Source: Candidatus Ruminimicrobiellum bubulum
GTDB lineage: Bacteria > Elusimicrobiota > Endomicrobiia > Endomicrobiales > Endomicrobiaceae
NCBI GenBank assembly: GCA_017651625.1
Contig: JAGCCP010000045.1
Span: 1 to 42,707, forward strand
Direction: 5' to 3'
DNA: 42,707 nt
This document shows, piece by piece, positions 28,634 through 37,228 of this stretch (position 1 is the first letter of the stretch; each line of letters opens with the position of its first letter). The notes beneath the pieces are model-generated. The model saw only the letters and a list, made by a program, of their open reading frames with translations. It was not told the origin of the DNA and made no database searches. A program made the translations under genes and the position numbers.

Positions 28634-29008
28634 ATGATTAAGATTTTAGTTTGTGATGATGAAATTTTTGCAAGAGATGCAATGGCAAAAATCATCAGAA
28701 GGAAAGGTTTTGATGTCGTTGTTGCTTCCAACGGGGAAGAGTGCATAGATTTGTTTAAGAAAGAAAACCCCGAGGTAGTTTTTTTGGATGTTATGTTGCC
28801 CGACTTGGACGGCGATCACATTCATAAATATTTAAAAGAATTAAAAGAAAATGTAAATGTTTACTATATTACCGGTTCGGACACTCTTTTTACGAGAGAA
28901 AATGCTATAATGGCAGGAGCTAAAGGGTATTTACAAAAGCCCGTTGATATAGATGCTTTATTTGAAACATTAGATGCAATAAAAAGAGATTTTGGAGAAC
29001 AAAATTGA
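28634..29008 (+). CDS. Single-domain response regulator (CheY-like receiver)
   Basis: A 124-residue receiver domain with nothing else attached. ILVCDDEIFARDAMAKIIRR has the acidic pair, VVFLDVMLPDLDG the phosphoacceptor Asp, YYITGSD the conserved Thr and GYLQKPVD the Lys. It likely relays phosphate between proteins or acts by protein contact. No kinase is adjacent; the nearest is at 35032. Its stop overlaps the start of the next gene (TTGA), so it is translationally linked to an unknown membrane protein and then to GH81 and M23 genes. Confidence 0.93.
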   Translation: MIKILVCDDEIFARDAMAKIIRRKGFDVVVASNGEECIDLFKKENPEVVFLDVMLPDLDGDHIHKYLKELKENVNVYYITGSDTLFTRENAIMAGAKGYLQKPVDIDALFETLDAIKRDFGEQN

Positions 29009-30102
29009 AAATAAAAAAAATATTGTCCGTTTTGTTAACATTATGCTTATTCGTTAATGTTTCTTTTGCGTTTGATCCTTATGCCGATGAAGAAGTAGAA
29101 AAAAAATCATACAAAAAATTATACTATGGTATCGCACTTACGTTGCTTGGCGGTTTTCTTGCATACGATGGTTTTTCATTAGAAAAAGTCGATGTTTCAA
29201 AACCGAGCGTGGATTTTCTTACCGTATCCCATTCCGAATGGGTACAGAACCCTGTTGCTTCTGAATTTTCATATCAGATGAGATCAGGGGTTTCTTTAAA
29301 CAATGTTAAAAATACAGATCCAGATGAGACTCCTTTGGTAGATGAGTGGACTGACTATACAATATATGAGATATTGAAGCCGGACGGAAAACCTTTCAGC
29401 CCTCCCAGTCAAACATATGATCCGCAGTATTATGATGAGTACGCTATAGAGCCGAATATTTTGTACAACAATGGTAATGTAGATTTGAGGAATATTACCA
29501 TAGAAGTTAGATATATATACAGCGATGGTTCTTATATAGGCGATCAACAAGGCACTCCGGTAACTGTAGAAGGATATCATACGGCAGGAACAAATAGCAG
29601 CGTGACAACACCCCCGACAGGAGAGAGTGGAGATATAATATACGATTACGAGCATATTGAAAAATTGAATGATTTGAAAAAAGGAGATTCTATAACTTGG
29701 CAAGATATTTGGGAGTGTAATGCGGCCGGAACTCTCGCACCTATGGGGAAAGGAAGAAGTGCTCATGTTGAATGGCATAAAGGGACAGGAGATCAATCCA
29801 ATAAAGAATTTTATAATGACGGAACAACCGGTCTTAACTTAGGAAAAGATTCAACTGTTCTCATGGAAGTTAGAGTAAAATTGAACAAAAATCAGCAATA
29901 TACTCCTATATACGAAACAAGACATAAAAGTGACCTTGAAGGTGTTGCTGGAATTTTTGTCGGTATTGCAGGTATTTACTTTATAATCGATCATTTTTTT
30001 GATATGCACAAGTTTAATGCTTATGCAAAAAGGCATAGCTTGAATTTAAGAGTTGCAACCGCTTCAAATCAGTACAAGTTGATGTTACAAAAAAGAATAT
30101 AA
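29005..30102 (+). CDS. Unknown exported/membrane protein coupled to a receiver gene
   Basis: I do not recognise this 365-residue protein. It has a signal peptide (ILSVLLTLCLFVNVSFA), a hydrophobic helix at about residues 40-58 (YYGIALTLLGGFLAYDG), a long polar, beta-rich middle with many Tyr/Asp/Gly/Thr residues, and a second hydrophobic helix near 315-333 (VAGIFVGIAGIYFIIDHFF) followed by a basic tail. The start is TTG at 29005, overlapping the receiver stop codon; no ATG occurs before residue 92. The layout suggests an inner-membrane protein with a large loop outside. Its neighbours point to envelope or polysaccharide use; function unknown. Confidence 0.8.
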   Translation: MKIKKILSVLLTLCLFVNVSFAFDPYADEEVEKKSYKKLYYGIALTLLGGFLAYDGFSLEKVDVSKPSVDFLTVSHSEWVQNPVASEFSYQMRSGVSLNNVKNTDPDETPLVDEWTDYTIYEILKPDGKPFSPPSQTYDPQYYDEYAIEPNILYNNGNVDLRNITIEVRYIYSDGSYIGDQQGTPVTVEGYHTAGTNSSVTTPPTGESGDIIYDYEHIEKLNDLKKGDSITWQDIWECNAAGTLAPMGKGRSAHVEWHKGTGDQSNKEFYNDGTTGLNLGKDSTVLMEVRVKLNKNQQYTPIYETRHKSDLEGVAGIFVGIAGIYFIIDHFFDMHKFNAYAKRHSLNLRVATASNQYKLMLQKRI

Positions 30103-30120
30103 AAGAAAAAATATAGGAGT

Positions 30121-32913
30121 ATGATGAAAAACCCTTTTGTGCTTTTTACGGCTTTGCTGCTTTTTTCTTCGATTTGTTTTGCAGTTCCGTCTCAACCTAC
30201 AGACAGATCTTCTTTTAGCACATCGGTTCCGTCTCAATATACACCGCCGGAACCGACTTACATAACAACAAACATTCAAACACCTATTCCGACAAACAAG
30301 TTTTTTAATTCGGTAATCAAAAATCCTACATATAACAATAAATATTCTGTGGATATGTATACATACCCACAGGTTGTAAGAGCTGAAGGTACGGGCCTTT
30401 TAATAGAATTTCCGGAAGTAAAACATTCCACTGTTGAATACCCGGAGATAGGATATTCTGCGGATAGGATGACTTTTAAAGATAACGATTATGATCATGA
30501 TGCCGATGAGCATGCTAACACAATAGCTGTTTCGATTTCCACCACGGTTTCAAACGGATACAGTATAACATTTCCGTCGGCAAAGCTGGATGGCTATTCC
30601 GATTTTGCCGCAACTATTAAATGGGAAAAAGAAGATAATGAAGATAACTATTGGATGAAATCGACAATAGTTCAAGGATCACCTTTTTCTTATTATGAAT
30701 TTTGTGAAGGTGTTTACCCTTCGCTTGGTTTTCCTTATGAATGGGGAAATTTTTGGGACGGTTCAACTCCCGGTTATACTTTGTACGATGCGGCAACAGG
30801 AGAACAAGTAGAAGAGTCTGCTTTGGAATATGCGGCAGATGCGGTAATTTTACATGTTCATCTTGAAACAAAAGATCTTTATTACGGAATATTTGTTCCG
30901 CAAGGAACAAAATTTGTTCAAGACAGCAACAATTTGAGAGGCGGAACAAACTATTTTCCTTGGGTTAGAACCGTAATAGATTTTTCCGGTGACGAAAGAT
31001 ATATGTCGATAGCACTTCTTCCTTCAGCAAGTTTGGAAGAAGCTGTGGAAGATGTAAGTGATTATTACAAATATGCATACAATTTCGTTACCGATACAAA
31101 AGTAAGTTGGGAAGTGTCTTCCTCCGATTATTCTTCAAAAACTACTTTCAACATAACAACCACAAAAAAAAGAACTGTTGAAGGACAACGAGACGGAACA
31201 ATATTCTGCTTGTATCCTCATCAGTATAATAATGCATCCTCGGTTGATTATCTAAACAATAAAACATTTAACACTTTAAGAGGAAAATTAAAGTTAGCAA
31301 AAGGCAGCGGGTTTTCTACAAAAGTCGGTTTTAAAGGAATCATTCCTTTTTTTCAATATGATGTAGAAGATATAAAAGAAGATTTATCCTTTTATTTAAA
31401 AAACGATGCTAACGAAATAAAAGTAGATACAAATCCTTACTACGATAATCCTTACAGAGCGGGTAAAATAATTGCAAAACTTGCCAACCTTTTACCTATA
31501 GCAGATAACTTAAAAGATGATCCCGAAGGTGCAAGTATAAAAACCAGTATCACCGTAAAACTGAAATCTTTATTAAAAAATTGGTTAACTTTTTCCGCCG
31601 GTGAGAATGCCAGATATTTTGCTTATGATGACACATGGGGTGGGCTTGAAGGAATAAAAGATGATGTATTTTACTCATTCAGATATAACGATCATCATTT
31701 TCATTTCGGTTATTTTATTTATTCCGCGGCAATACTGGCGATGTACGATGCGGATTTTGCTAACGAGTATGGGCAAATGGTAAATTTTTTAATAAAAGAT
31801 ATTGCAAATACAAAAAGAAACGATCCGGATTTTCCTTTTATGAGACATTTTGATTTCTATGAATCTCACAGTTGGGCGAATGGTATGGGTGGTCAAGACA
31901 ATGGCGGTATAGATCAAGAATCGTCTTCGGAAGCAATGAATGCGTGGAGTGCAATATATTTGTGGGGACTTGCTACAGGCAATAAAGAATACGAGAATCT
32001 CGGAATATATTTGTACTCCAACGAATATGAAGCAATAAAATATTATTATTTCGATATAGACGGAGAAATTTTTCCTTCGGAATATGGTCATAATTCTGTA
32101 GGAAGACTTTTCGGAGGTTTATTTTCCTATGATTTGTTCTTTTATCCGATGATTCCTCAAACAATAAAAGGAATACAAGTTTTGCCGATGACTCCGGCAA
32201 TGACATATTTGGCTTATGATGGATATTATTTGGACGATTTTTATGACCAATCTTTAACGGAAAGCGGAGCTAACGAGCAACAATGGTACGATATTTGGGC
32301 AAGACTTATTTCTTTGCGCGATCCTCAAGAGGCTATATCAAAATTCGATGCTTATAAACAAACGGAGCCGGAAGAAGGCAGTTCAATGAGTTTCACTTAT
32401 CATTTTATAAATTTCTTTGACAAGTACGGAACGCCGGTATTTACACATAGTGCAGATACATCAAGTTATATGGTTTTGGAAAAAGACGGAATAAATACTT
32501 ATTGTGCTTATAATCCAGGTAACAGTTCAAAAAATGTTACATTTTACAGTCCTTCGGGAGAACTTTTAGGTTATTTACATGTACCTAAAAAATCTTTTGC
32601 GATGACACAAGATTTATCTAAAGATGTACCGTCGGAAAAAATCATGGTATATCCCGTTCCGTATAAGCCTAACAGCGGCGGAAGGTATGGTGGAGACGGA
32701 ATACATTTTTCAAATGTTGATGAAGGAACCAATATACAAATATTTAATATTGCAGGTGAAAAAGTATTTGAAACAACGGTTGACAGTTCCGATGACTTCT
32801 TGTGGAAAGCAAAAAATAATGCCGGTAACGATATTGCTTCCGGTGTATATTTCTACTATATAAAAACGTCGGAAGGTACTAAGGTTAAAGGCAAACTTGC
32901 CATAGAGAGATAA
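30121..32913 (+). CDS. Secreted GH81 endo-beta-1,3-glucanase with C-terminal sorting-like domain
   Basis: A 930-residue secreted enzyme. Signal peptide (LLFSSICFA), then a GH81 catalytic region to about residue 770. Diagnostic motifs: IPTNKFFNSVI, YNDHHFHFGYFIYSAA with D524 and H528, and DQESSSEAMNAW with E600 and E604. The D524-to-E600 spacing of 76 matches what I recall for Bacillus halodurans GH81 (D466/E542). It should cut laminarin-, callose- or yeast-type beta-1,3-glucan internally. The last ~90 residues (VYPVPYKPNSGG ... GNDIASGVYFYYIKT) are a FlgD-like/type-A sorting-like domain, as in the M6 protease. AGGAG precedes the doubled ATG. Confidence 0.93.
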   Translation: MMKNPFVLFTALLLFSSICFAVPSQPTDRSSFSTSVPSQYTPPEPTYITTNIQTPIPTNKFFNSVIKNPTYNNKYSVDMYTYPQVVRAEGTGLLIEFPEVKHSTVEYPEIGYSADRMTFKDNDYDHDADEHANTIAVSISTTVSNGYSITFPSAKLDGYSDFAATIKWEKEDNEDNYWMKSTIVQGSPFSYYEFCEGVYPSLGFPYEWGNFWDGSTPGYTLYDAATGEQVEESALEYAADAVILHVHLETKDLYYGIFVPQGTKFVQDSNNLRGGTNYFPWVRTVIDFSGDERYMSIALLPSASLEEAVEDVSDYYKYAYNFVTDTKVSWEVSSSDYSSKTTFNITTTKKRTVEGQRDGTIFCLYPHQYNNASSVDYLNNKTFNTLRGKLKLAKGSGFSTKVGFKGIIPFFQYDVEDIKEDLSFYLKNDANEIKVDTNPYYDNPYRAGKIIAKLANLLPIADNLKDDPEGASIKTSITVKLKSLLKNWLTFSAGENARYFAYDDTWGGLEGIKDDVFYSFRYNDHHFHFGYFIYSAAILAMYDADFANEYGQMVNFLIKDIANTKRNDPDFPFMRHFDFYESHSWANGMGGQDNGGIDQESSSEAMNAWSAIYLWGLATGNKEYENLGIYLYSNEYEAIKYYYFDIDGEIFPSEYGHNSVGRLFGGLFSYDLFFYPMIPQTIKGIQVLPMTPAMTYLAYDGYYLDDFYDQSLTESGANEQQWYDIWARLISLRDPQEAISKFDAYKQTEPEEGSSMSFTYHFINFFDKYGTPVFTHSADTSSYMVLEKDGINTYCAYNPGNSSKNVTFYSPSGELLGYLHVPKKSFAMTQDLSKDVPSEKIMVYPVPYKPNSGGRYGGDGIHFSNVDEGTNIQIFNIAGEKVFETTVDSSDDFLWKAKNNAGNDIASGVYFYYIKTSEGTKVKGKLAIER

Positions 32914-32918
32914 AAATA

Positions 32919-33857
32919 ATGAAGAATATTGTTATAAGATGGTCTGTTTTTTTTATTTGTTTATTTGTTGTTTATTTTGTTGCAAATGCAAAAGTTCATG
33001 CAATTGCTCAGGCTAATTTACAGTCGGCAATGGTGGTAAACTTACCGCAATATACAAAACAGGAACTTATTGACGATGTAAAAGCAAGAATGACATATTT
33101 GCTTACAAGAACAAAAGGGGTAAAGTTTCTTATACACAAAGTAAAAAGAGGAGAAAATCTTTGGGGTATAGCAAAAAAACACGGATATTCCGTTCATACT
33201 GTAATAGGTTGTAATCCTCAAATGAAAACTTACAATGTAAGCACAAATGAAAAATTATTAATGCCTTCGATAGGAGGAAATCTTCATCCCGTAAGTGCGA
33301 CCGACACTTGGGAATCAATTGCGGAAAAGTATAATATAGAAGAATCTGTTCTGAAAGAAACTAATTTTGGAATAACAGACTTAACAAATGCTCCGTATGT
33401 CTTTATTCCGGGCAGAAAACCTGCCGTTGATTTAATGAACGAATCTATGCAGGAAAAATATGCATTAAGAGATTTGTTCAGATCTCCTCTTGCCGGCAGA
33501 CTTTCAAGCACTTTCGGAACAAGAAGACATCCCGTAACCGGTAAAGTAAGTAAACACGGCGGAATAGATATTGCCGTAAAAACCGGGACTTTGGTAGGTG
33601 CTGCTGCCGACGGTATTGTTACTGTTGCAAGTACTAACGTGGGTCATTACGGTACGGCGGTTTTTATCGACCATCAAAACGGATATATCACTCATTACGG
33701 ACATTTATCTAAAATTCTTGTCAGAGTAGGCCAAAAAGTTAAAGCTGGTCAAATCATAGCCAAAAGCGGTTCTACCGGAAGATCTACCGGACCGCACTTA
33801 CATTTTACCGTCAAGAAAAACGGTGTAAGTTTAGATCCGCTAAAATTCTTGTGTTAA
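32919..33857 (+). CDS. LysM and M23 peptidase domain protein
   Basis: A 312-residue protein with an N-terminal membrane anchor or signal (residues 5-25), two LysM-type modules at about 68-165 (HKVKRGENLWGIAKKHGYSV and the weaker HPVSATDTWESIAEKYNI), and a C-terminal M23 domain: RHPVTGKVSKHGGIDIAVKT and HLHFTV supply the zinc ligands (H-x3-D and HxH). It should bind and cleave peptidoglycan cross-links or act as an amidase activator. It starts five bases after the GH81 stop, so it belongs to that operon. Confidence 0.94.
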   Translation: MKNIVIRWSVFFICLFVVYFVANAKVHAIAQANLQSAMVVNLPQYTKQELIDDVKARMTYLLTRTKGVKFLIHKVKRGENLWGIAKKHGYSVHTVIGCNPQMKTYNVSTNEKLLMPSIGGNLHPVSATDTWESIAEKYNIEESVLKETNFGITDLTNAPYVFIPGRKPAVDLMNESMQEKYALRDLFRSPLAGRLSSTFGTRRHPVTGKVSKHGGIDIAVKTGTLVGAAADGIVTVASTNVGHYGTAVFIDHQNGYITHYGHLSKILVRVGQKVKAGQIIAKSGSTGRSTGPHLHFTVKKNGVSLDPLKFLC

Positions 33858-33963: not shown

Positions 33964-33986
33964 AACAAATTGCTCCGCAATTTGTT
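33964..33986 (-). terminator. Terminator of the kinase/NERD-regulator operon
   Basis: AACAAATTGC and GCAATTTGTT form a perfect ten-base stem with a three-base loop (TCC), one base beyond the stop codon of the regulator gene on the minus strand. The T-tail is weak, so efficiency is uncertain. Confidence 0.6.
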
Positions 33987-33987
33987 T

Positions 33988-35022
33988 CTATTTCGTTAAG
34001 TTTTCGAGGATTAAATTCTTTACTTTGTCGGTAACGTTTCGTTTAGGCGAAGCAAAAACCGTTTTTATTATAAAATCGGAAGTTAATTCTTTTGCTTTTA
34101 CAAATTTTGTGTATCTGTTACTGTTTTGTAGATTAAGACCGCTTATATCGGTAGAATCCGTAAATACCGCAAATGTTTGTATGAACGGTCTGTAAAATTC
34201 GTCACGAATATTAAAATTGTTTTCTTTTAATATCTTTTCTATTTTTTTACTTACTTGTTTAAATTGGTTGTCGGTCTGTTCAAAAAGGTTTCTTCTTTTT
34301 TCGGATAACAGTTCTTTTCCGTCAATTATGATTTTTGTATCTTCATTTGCACTACCTATAAGTTTTGCATTAGGAAAATATTTCGTTTCGAAAATTAAAA
34401 CGGCAAAAGGCAAAGGCGGTTTTGTAAATGCTACAACATCTATTTCCTGACCCAAAATAACAGCATTCTTTTTAGGCGATAAAATAACTTTACTAAATTG
34501 TGATACTTTGTTAAATATTTCTTCTTCAAACATTCTTCCTGCACCTGTTTGAGCTTGTTGTTTATTGTCTAACATAGAAGATAAAAGAGTATTTTGCGAC
34601 TGTAAATCTTGAACTGTTTTATTTAAAGAATTTTCTTGGGCTCTAAGAGCTTTTCTTACTTTTACTATTAATTCCGTCTCGGTAACAGGTTTAGACATAA
34701 AATCAAAAATCATATCACCCGCAACTTCCGTTACGGACTCTCCGTAAGTTTTTTCCATTGCCGACAACAAAATAACTTGTACCGAAGGTGCAGTTTGTTT
34801 TATGAACGGTAAAATGTCTATTCCCGTTTCACCTACACCGAAATGGATATCCAAAATTAAAAGATTTATGGTGTGTGGGTTGTTAAGTAGAAATTTTTTT
34901 ATTTCGAGGGTCGAAGAAAATTGTTTCACTTCAACATTATCGAAATGTTTAAGAATAGTTCTTTCGAGAGCATTTCTTATATTTGCATCATCATCGGTTA
35001 AAGCAATAATTTTCTTCTCCAT
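33988..35022 (-). CDS. Response regulator with NERD/PD-(D/E)XK nuclease-like output domain
   Basis: A 344-residue protein. Residues 1-130 are a receiver domain: KIIALTDDDANIRNALERTI (acidic residues), LLILDIHFGVGETG (phosphoacceptor Asp) and FMSKPVTETEL (Lys). A coiled-coil-like linker follows (ENSLNKTVQDLQSQNTLL). From about 165 a second domain opens with GRMFEEEIFNKV and shows E193-I-D195 (GQEIDVVAFT) then E212-T-K214 (VLIFETKYFPNAKLIG), the spacing of NERD or PD-(D/E)XK nuclease folds. The C-terminal ~90 residues are unassigned. No DNA-binding helix-turn-helix was seen. It follows its kinase gene by nine bases. A nuclease-like output for a two-component system is unusual; activity is inference. 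Confidence 0.78.
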   Translation of the reverse strand: MEKKIIALTDDDANIRNALERTILKHFDNVEVKQFSSTLEIKKFLLNNPHTINLLILDIHFGVGETGIDILPFIKQTAPSVQVILLSAMEKTYGESVTEVAGDMIFDFMSKPVTETELIVKVRKALRAQENSLNKTVQDLQSQNTLLSSMLDNKQQAQTGAGRMFEEEIFNKVSQFSKVILSPKKNAVILGQEIDVVAFTKPPLPFAVLIFETKYFPNAKLIGSANEDTKIIIDGKELLSEKRRNLFEQTDNQFKQVSKKIEKILKENNFNIRDEFYRPFIQTFAVFTDSTDISGLNLQNSNRYTKFVKAKELTSDFIIKTVFASPKRNVTDKVKNLILENLTK

Positions 35023-35031
35023 CTTTTCTCC

Positions 35032-37038
35032 TTACATTTTATACATCGGTATTGAAATATTTGTTTTCAATCCCGTTTCGTTTTTGTCCGTAATATTTGC
35101 CGCGGTTATTTTTCCGTTTAATATAGATACAAAATAGGCTGTATGTATTGTTCCTTCGCCGAGTCTTTTACCTTTAGAACTTTCAATTTGTTCTTTATAA
35201 AGTTTTTGTAATTTTGATTCTTCCACACCGCCGGCATTATCCGTAATTGATATTATCAAATTTTTTAAGTCTTGTGATACTTTTAATGAAATATTTAATT
35301 TCGCGGTAAAATTGTCGTCGAGTAATAATTTTTGTAAAGCGAATATCGAATTATCCAAAATATTGTTTATTGCAATAAAGATCAATCTGTTGGTATAACA
35401 ATAAAATCTTGTTATATCTTCATCGAATTTATCAAAGGTAATTTTTATATACGGAGACAATTTTAAATTATAAAATTCTATTTGATTTTCTATTTGTTCC
35501 TGAATATAAGAAACGGTATTTTTAGATAATTTTCCGGTTCCTAATTCTTCAATATGTTCTCTTGTGTTTTTTTGATTTTCCAAAATCGCATCTTTATAGG
35601 GTTTTACTATTTTTTCATATACTTCCGACAACAAATCGTTGAATCCCGTATTGGTTTTTTCCAACTCGTTTATCAAATCGTGTCTGCTGCTCCTTAACAG
35701 TTCGACGGTATCTTGCGACCAATTAAGTTCCAATGCCTGAAGTTTTTGTCTTTGTGTATCGAAAGAATCGGAAATTTCCGTTATTGTTTGTTTCTTTATC
35801 AGTTCGTTTTCAAGAGTAATATCTCTGGTCATATTGTTATTGTATTTGTCTATAAGAATGAAAGTAACGAGAAGAATTATAAGCCATAAAAAATTGCTTA
35901 CGTTTGCCGGAGAAACCGAGTTGGATTGATAGTATCGTATAGGTGTTATTCCCGTCAAATTCACAATAATCGACCCATATATAAGAACAATAACGATAGA
36001 TATTAAAAATAAAGTTAATATAAAATTCATTATATCGGAATCAAACTCTTTCTTGTTTAAAATGTTTCTTTGCAAATAGCTGAAGTCAAAAGAGTTTTTT
36101 CGAATAGGAATTATTACTTTTAAAAAAAGCAACAATATTATTATAATCAGCGGAATAGAAATCATTTCCAAAAAGATAAATCCTTGAATGGAATTAACGG
36201 AAATATCGGTCATAATGGTAGTTAGTATTGTATTTGAAACGGATTTTACGGTGGTAATGTATATGTATCCCGTAACGATAAAAGTTATAAACTCTACAAC
36301 AGATATGTTCGACATACAAATTTTAAACCAAAAGATATTATTGTTTTTTACTTTCCTCTGATAATGTTGAGTAAACATCGTTGTATTATATTTTAAAATT
36401 GTCATGGAAATAATTGATCCTATAAATACCGTAACTATAATGTTTGGAATTTCTATAAAAGTTTCCGCAATATAGTTTGCAACAATCGATAAGAATCCGG
36501 AATTGTCTATAAGGAAAAGGTTTCTGAAAAGTTCCGTAAAGTAAATAGAATAAGGTTGTTTAAATATTGCATCATGGAAAATTACGTTTTTAACTATCGA
36601 AGAGGGAATAGATATTATTAAACCTGCCGCTATTGCCGCAAACAGCACAAATTTTATAGCTATAAAAAAAGTTTGTTTGAAACTGTTTTTGTTTTTGCTT
36701 TTTGTATTAAATATTATTAAGTTTCCGGTTTCGGCAAGCCAACCCCAAACAAGGGCTCCCGTCATATTTATAACGGCAACATAAATAAAGTGCGGTGAAG
36801 TAATATTTGATAAAACTATAGGTGTTGCAATTGCCGCAATCAAAGCCCAAACTGTTCCCAATGTCATTGCGACAACGAAAGTTCCCACCATATCGAAAGT
36901 CAAAAATCTGTAACTGTTTTCATAAACAAAACTATGTCCTGCCCAATTTAACAATACGGCAAAACAAGTTACAAGAATATGAAATCTTTTTTTATAAAAA
37001 GAATCATATATATCGGAAAATGTATCTTTGATACCCAT
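35032..37038 (-). CDS. Polytopic membrane sensor histidine kinase
   Basis: A 668-residue kinase. Residues ~20-400 hold about ten predicted membrane helices in two blocks; the first (DMVGTFVVAMTLGTVWALIA, then ITSPHFIYVAVINMTGALVW) resembles small-solute-binding membrane sensors. A helical linker leads to a phosphoacceptor helix with H453 in RSSRHDLINEL and then an ATPase domain with N box INNILDNSIFAL, G1 ITDNAGGV and G2 LGEGT. The R-H-D-x-x-N histidine box is of the CitA/Spo0B-like type. It surely phosphorylates the regulator encoded nine bases downstream. The signal sensed is unknown. Its promoter gives almost no leader. Confidence 0.9.
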   Translation of the reverse strand: MGIKDTFSDIYDSFYKKRFHILVTCFAVLLNWAGHSFVYENSYRFLTFDMVGTFVVAMTLGTVWALIAAIATPIVLSNITSPHFIYVAVINMTGALVWGWLAETGNLIIFNTKSKNKNSFKQTFFIAIKFVLFAAIAAGLIISIPSSIVKNVIFHDAIFKQPYSIYFTELFRNLFLIDNSGFLSIVANYIAETFIEIPNIIVTVFIGSIISMTILKYNTTMFTQHYQRKVKNNNIFWFKICMSNISVVEFITFIVTGYIYITTVKSVSNTILTTIMTDISVNSIQGFIFLEMISIPLIIIILLLFLKVIIPIRKNSFDFSYLQRNILNKKEFDSDIMNFILTLFLISIVIVLIYGSIIVNLTGITPIRYYQSNSVSPANVSNFLWLIILLVTFILIDKYNNNMTRDITLENELIKKQTITEISDSFDTQRQKLQALELNWSQDTVELLRSSRHDLINELEKTNTGFNDLLSEVYEKIVKPYKDAILENQKNTREHIEELGTGKLSKNTVSYIQEQIENQIEFYNLKLSPYIKITFDKFDEDITRFYCYTNRLIFIAINNILDNSIFALQKLLLDDNFTAKLNISLKVSQDLKNLIISITDNAGGVEESKLQKLYKEQIESSKGKRLGEGTIHTAYFVSILNGKITAANITDKNETGLKTNISIPMYKM

Positions 37039-37097: not shown

Positions 37098-37127
37098 TTG
37101 ACAAAATTTATAATATTGTTGTATAAT
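37098..37127 (+). promoter_or_regulatory. Promoter of tRNA-Asp
   Basis: TTGACA (37098-37103) and TATAAT (37122-37127) are 18 bases apart, both perfect consensus, 22 bases before the tRNA. Confidence 0.8.
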
Positions 37128-37149
37128 ACCAAAACAAGTTTTTGGCTTT

Positions 37150-37228
37150 GGGAATGTGGTGTAGCCTGGTTTAACACACTGCCCTGTCAAGGCAGAGACC
37201 GCGGGTTCAAATCCCGTCGTTCCCGCCA
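37150..37228 (+). tRNA. tRNA-Asp (GTC)
   Basis: A full cloverleaf: acceptor GGGAATG pairs with CGTTCCC, anticodon stem CTGCC/GGCAG with loop CTGTCAA giving anticodon GTC at 37186-37188, T-stem GCGGG/CCCGT around TTCAAAT. The discriminator G is followed by an encoded CCA (37226-37228), unlike the other three tRNAs in the window. Confidence 0.95.

Follow-up and report, generated by a model that had tools for sequence, protein, structure and literature searches.

The window analysed here (42,707 nucleotides, one contig of a genome of 1.88 Mb) encodes a membrane sensor histidine kinase and a response regulator, which by their sequences are most likely dedicated partners in a two-component system whose output is enzymatic. 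Behind its receiver and a helical linker, where a DNA-binding domain would be usual, the regulator carries a predicted nuclease-like NERD domain of the PD-(D/E)XK type; from sequence and structure models taken together, we think it probable that the complete chain operates, i.e. that a NERD nuclease is gated by phosphorylation and activated via parallel dimerisation. The features of the system, in window positions, are as follows.

35032-37038, minus strand: sensor histidine kinase, membrane, 668 aa (open reading frame; hydropathy; HATPase_c in orthologues; conserved motifs)
33988-35022, minus strand: response regulator, 344 aa, with receiver, likely coiled coil and predicted NERD domain (open reading frame; Pfam Response_reg, 2.6e-10; 30 aligned orthologues)
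34648-35022, minus strand: receiver domain, residues 1-125 (Pfam stretch 6-122; conserved phosphorylation residues)
34549-34647, minus strand: linker, residues 126-158 (predicted long helix; conserved heptad columns)
33991-34548, minus strand: predicted NERD-type PD-(D/E)XK domain, residues 159-344 (Pfam NERD in orthologues; hhalign; predicted fold; Foldseek)
33964-33986, no strand assigned: 10-bp hairpin straight after the regulator stop codon (pattern scan, consensus match only)

The kinase gene lies 5' of the regulator gene, with a gap of 9 bases, and both flanks of the pair carry plus-strand genes. On one side a LysM/M23-type peptidase-like gene converges on the pair, and on the other a tRNA-Asp gene and an inositol-monophosphatase-like gene diverge from it (the two protein names were assigned by eye from sequence); the hairpin at 33964-33986 is a possible terminator between the convergent genes. 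Directly before the tRNA-Asp gene (gtc), and divergent from the kinase gene, there is a perfect TTGACA-18-TATAAT match (window 37098-37228). On the regulator side, the plus strand at 28634-33857 encodes the LysM/M23-like peptidase and a large secreted protein whose C-terminal end is sorting-like; several rumen and digester genera retain this block next to the pair, and in termite lineages only its peptidase adjoins the pair, sometimes.

The kinase is intact as judged from its motifs, with an RHD-type H-box (H453 within an RHDL motif), an N-box (N559, D562, N563) and G-boxes (D600-x-A-G-G and G627-E-G-T), all of which are invariant across 15 orthologues save for one change at N601. HATPase_c was matched in 15/15 of these kinases (best 9.3e-9); the window copy scored 20.3 bits, under the curated cut-off of 26.4, and a match of SPOB_a over the H-box region was weak. 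The hydropathy profile has nine main hydrophobic regions, and since one of these is wide enough for two helices, the kinase would have nine to ten membrane helices.

The receiver scored 40.9 bits against Pfam PF00072 (Response_reg; cut-off 30.2). By its sequence it is canonical, with a complete set of phosphorylation residues: the acidic pair D10/D11, the phospho-acceptor D58 and K111 are invariant in 30/30 orthologues (55-95% identity to the window copy), and position 87 is S in 25 and T in five of them. No helix-turn-helix was matched in the regulator by the Pfam scan, in agreement with the earlier reading. Against Pfam and NCBIfam, the window regulator matched in its receiver only, and against PDB sequences it gave receiver matches only, besides chance-level Slx1 and RecA. 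Cor1, YhdB and similar weak Pfam matches in the C-terminal part lay well under cut-off and were rejected as coiled-coil or chance matches.

In the model of the regulator, a helix (residues 115-157) leads out of the receiver, with low model confidence at residues 134-158. The linker shows the heptad V137-L140-N144-L147-L151 (spacing 3-4-3-4), of which L140, N144 and L147 are invariant in the 30 orthologues. In zippers of the GCN4 type, which are parallel and dimeric, an asparagine is found at an 'a' position of the heptad. The invariant N144 is reminiscent of this, so the linker is likely a parallel coiled coil, and we infer that the regulator dimerises.

The C-terminal region of the regulator is, with high confidence, a NERD domain, as the earlier note had proposed; three legs carry this prediction, i.e. 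the curated Pfam profile, a profile alignment, and the fold. A profile search of this region found NERD (PF08378) in the orthologues and not in the window's own regulator, which has diverged too far for Pfam: at a permissive limit the profile matched the C-terminal domains of 20 out of 28 orthologues (best 7.5e-6), and the full-length orthologue L040 scored over the curated cut-off (23.0 vs 22.1 bits). When the output-domain profile was compared with NERD proteins of the phylum by hhalign, a score of 36.7 was obtained (P 4.2e-5), and without guidance the alignment placed G/E166, D195, E212-x-K214, N-x3-Q (Q249) and the following strand in register with NERD. The controls scored 10.9 (reversed profile) and 11.9 (receiver against NERD), and 199 of 200 column shuffles scored 19.9 or less; when the one family relative (L060) was left out, the score was 21, close to the shuffled controls. 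One of the 200 shuffled NERD profiles scored 134.8, far above the others, which is unexplained. YraN/UPF0102 was rejected as a nearer relative, since its profile-profile alignment spanned just 37 columns, at P 0.006. PF08378 also matches short GEIDIIA...FVEVK proteins that resemble YraN/UPF0102, for example at G000:C57:77833-78075 and in open frames of ~125 aa in most Elusimicrobiota genomes, so that NERD counts by profile alone are too high.

Modelled alone, the output domain reached a pLDDT of 90 and a pTM of 0.87, with the order helix, three strands, further hairpin strands, helix, strand. The predicted core is an alpha-beta-beta-beta-alpha-beta PD-(D/E)XK fold with E166 on helix 1 and the other candidate catalytic residues on strands 2 (D195) and 3 (E212 and K214), and from these places in the secondary structure the candidate residues would cluster in space. 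The nearest solved structures in Foldseek include SfsA, EndoMS, FokI, BspD6I, Bax1, Avs3, MunI, MGME1, Hachiman and Shedu; the top neighbours are mostly PD-(D/E)XK proteins, at weak similarity (best E 3.3e-3, TM 0.25-0.4). The full model also matched a phage 'Nuclease-related domain protein' (4.6e-4) when compared with predicted structures of viral proteins. What had been described as an unassigned C-terminal part turned out to belong mostly to the same fold, as the NERD alignment continues through the strand at 280-287, and a single domain, modelled with confidence, extends as far as the C-terminus.

The motifs G162-x3-E166, E193-x-D195 and E212-x-K214 lie exactly at the positions given in the earlier note, and the candidate catalytic set is intact as claimed: E166, D195, E212, K214 and Q249 are invariant in the 30 aligned orthologues, as are G162 and Q253, and E193 is replaced by Q once. 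With 53 of 167 columns invariant, the chance that all five residues of the set would be so is 0.003. On the two points on which the nuclease reading was to stand or fall, the fold is predicted to be restriction-endonuclease-like and the residues are conserved.

Of 100 related genomes, 31 contain the kinase, and exactly these 31 contain the regulator; in the other 69 neither was found. The proposed pairing is conserved, including in two genomes (G011 and G018, with the regulator in L017 and L044) that keep both genes unlinked. Where the two genes are adjacent, the pair sits among differing neighbours in different genera, and the comparison of neighbours between genera yielded no conserved operon partner beyond the kinase. 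The pair is under strong purifying selection (dN/dS 0.02-0.09 for the NERD part, and similar for the receiver). There is one copy per genome, and kinase distances correlate strongly with regulator distances (r ~0.9), which is expected under vertical inheritance; shared descent alone would give the same correlation. No relatives were found in plasmids and viral contigs.

The output domain occurs in 32 of 295 genomes of the phylum, all of the family Endomicrobiaceae, which are gut bacteria, relatives of rumen and termite symbionts. A pattern search of 84,980 species, with patterns that recognise close relatives only, returned Elusimicrobiota only, nearly all with Endomicrobia or Ruminimicrobiellum-type names; in the searches made, the pair was found only in Endomicrobiaceae. 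Many reduced genomes of one genus (g8) are without the pair, and this genus probably represents the flagellate endosymbionts Endomicrobiellum (PMC11257099). In genome G048 (L097:409-2064), a deletion has joined the two genes and taken with it the G-boxes of the kinase as well as the receiver; in the fused gene, the NERD part keeps its motifs and is 92% identical to L028, the 5' part of the kinase is broken by stops, and the fusion is either natural decay or an assembly chimera. As reduced genomes have lost the pair or carry it in decayed form, it appears dispensable where genomes shrink, and a link to life outside hosts or between them is probable.

The NERD domain could instead be a nucleic-acid- or protein-binding output, with the phosphorylated regulator binding DNA, RNA or a partner and not working as a nuclease. 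Most response regulators act by binding, and the best Foldseek neighbour of the output domain, SfsA, has the PD-(D/E)XK fold and an archaeal relative with a solved structure that includes DNA. The function of NERD domains had not been studied experimentally before SmdA of Staphylococcus, a division-linked protein which is tied to cell morphology and whose NERD-like domain matters for this without several conserved NERD residues (PMC9040797). However, orthologues down to 55% identity show no change at any candidate catalytic residue, the lysine among them, a degree of conservation that pure binding would not require; we consider a binding output unlikely, if by no means far-fetched.

For the gated nuclease itself, the earlier note had raised defence and competence as possible roles. 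In a defence or abortive-infection system, the kinase would sense infection and the regulator would destroy host or phage nucleic acid; NERD domains are present in PglW of type 2 BREX and in a subset of DndF (PMC12839542), as well as in Mokosh type I (PMC10952713), and one orthologue showed a weak match to MkoA (0.0015). The window pair, however, has no PADLOC match and no recognised defence neighbours, its neighbours vary between genera, the correlated distances and the single copy fit vertical inheritance, and no relatives were found in the plasmids and viral contigs searched, so that defence is very unlikely. Control of DNA uptake or recombination would fit the general link of NERD and YraN-like domains to DNA processing. 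However, ComEC is present in most relatives with or without the pair (e.g. in the pair-less G012, G014, G015, G017 and G019), and none of the genes beside the pair was recognised as a competence gene; competence seems extremely unlikely as a role. More likely than phage defence is a physiological response that is inherited with the chromosome, in which nucleic acids are processed or turned over under envelope or environmental stress.

For the phosphorylation-gated NERD nuclease, we would expect the membrane kinase to sense an envelope or environmental signal, to autophosphorylate at H453, and to pass the phosphate to D58 of the regulator. Because a long helix with a coiled-coil heptad joins the receiver to the output, phosphorylation most likely acts via a parallel dimer of the regulator, which it would drive or re-register; the dimer would then bring the NERD domain, a predicted phosphodiesterase of the PD-(D/E)XK fold, into its active state for cutting DNA or RNA. 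Judged by sequence and predicted structure, the cell may in this way turn on nucleic-acid cutting when its sensor fires. If this is true, phosphate flow in a two-component system would directly switch a restriction-type nuclease; the poorly understood NERD domain would also gain a system that can be switched on in the test tube, and what NERD domains do would become directly testable.

That response regulators can have enzymatic outputs is generally established (PMC5847659), and in PorX a receiver is reported to be joined to a PglZ phosphodiesterase that acts on oligonucleotides (PMC12839542). The 'new kind of output' of the earlier note is therefore worded somewhat too strongly. No description of a receiver-NERD or nuclease-output regulator was found in the open literature searched. 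It is possible, at slightly less than an even chance in our estimate, that this is the first two-component system with a phosphorylation-gated PD-(D/E)XK nuclease as output, which would act directly on RNA or DNA and not via transcription-factor binding.

PorX resembles the regulator of the window as a response regulator with a nucleic-acid phosphodiesterase output, and its receiver was among the sequence and fold matches; in contrast, PglZ has a nucleotide-pyrophosphatase-type fold and not PD-(D/E)XK, and the Pfam scan found no PglZ in the window regulator. Receiver-enzyme regulators of the DgcR type, with DgcR also among the receiver matches, share the long helix from receiver to enzymatic output, but the output of DgcR makes c-di-GMP, and no GGDEF was found in the window regulator by the Pfam scan. 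SfsA, EndoMS/NucS and FokI-type PD-(D/E)XK proteins are the nearest solved folds of the output domain, and differ in having no receiver and only ~5-13% identity. A fusion of NERD to a signalling module, a kinase, exists already in PglW and DndF (PMC4365076, PMC12839542), and nine further NERD proteins of the phylum, when examined, all turned out to have no receiver. With the NERD proteins at large (PF08378; single-domain proteins, NERD-UvrD helicases, PglW), the output domain shares the predicted fold and the motif order G-E / D / ExK / Q, whereas the signalling module to which it is joined here comes from a two-component system, being a receiver that has a histidine kinase of its own.
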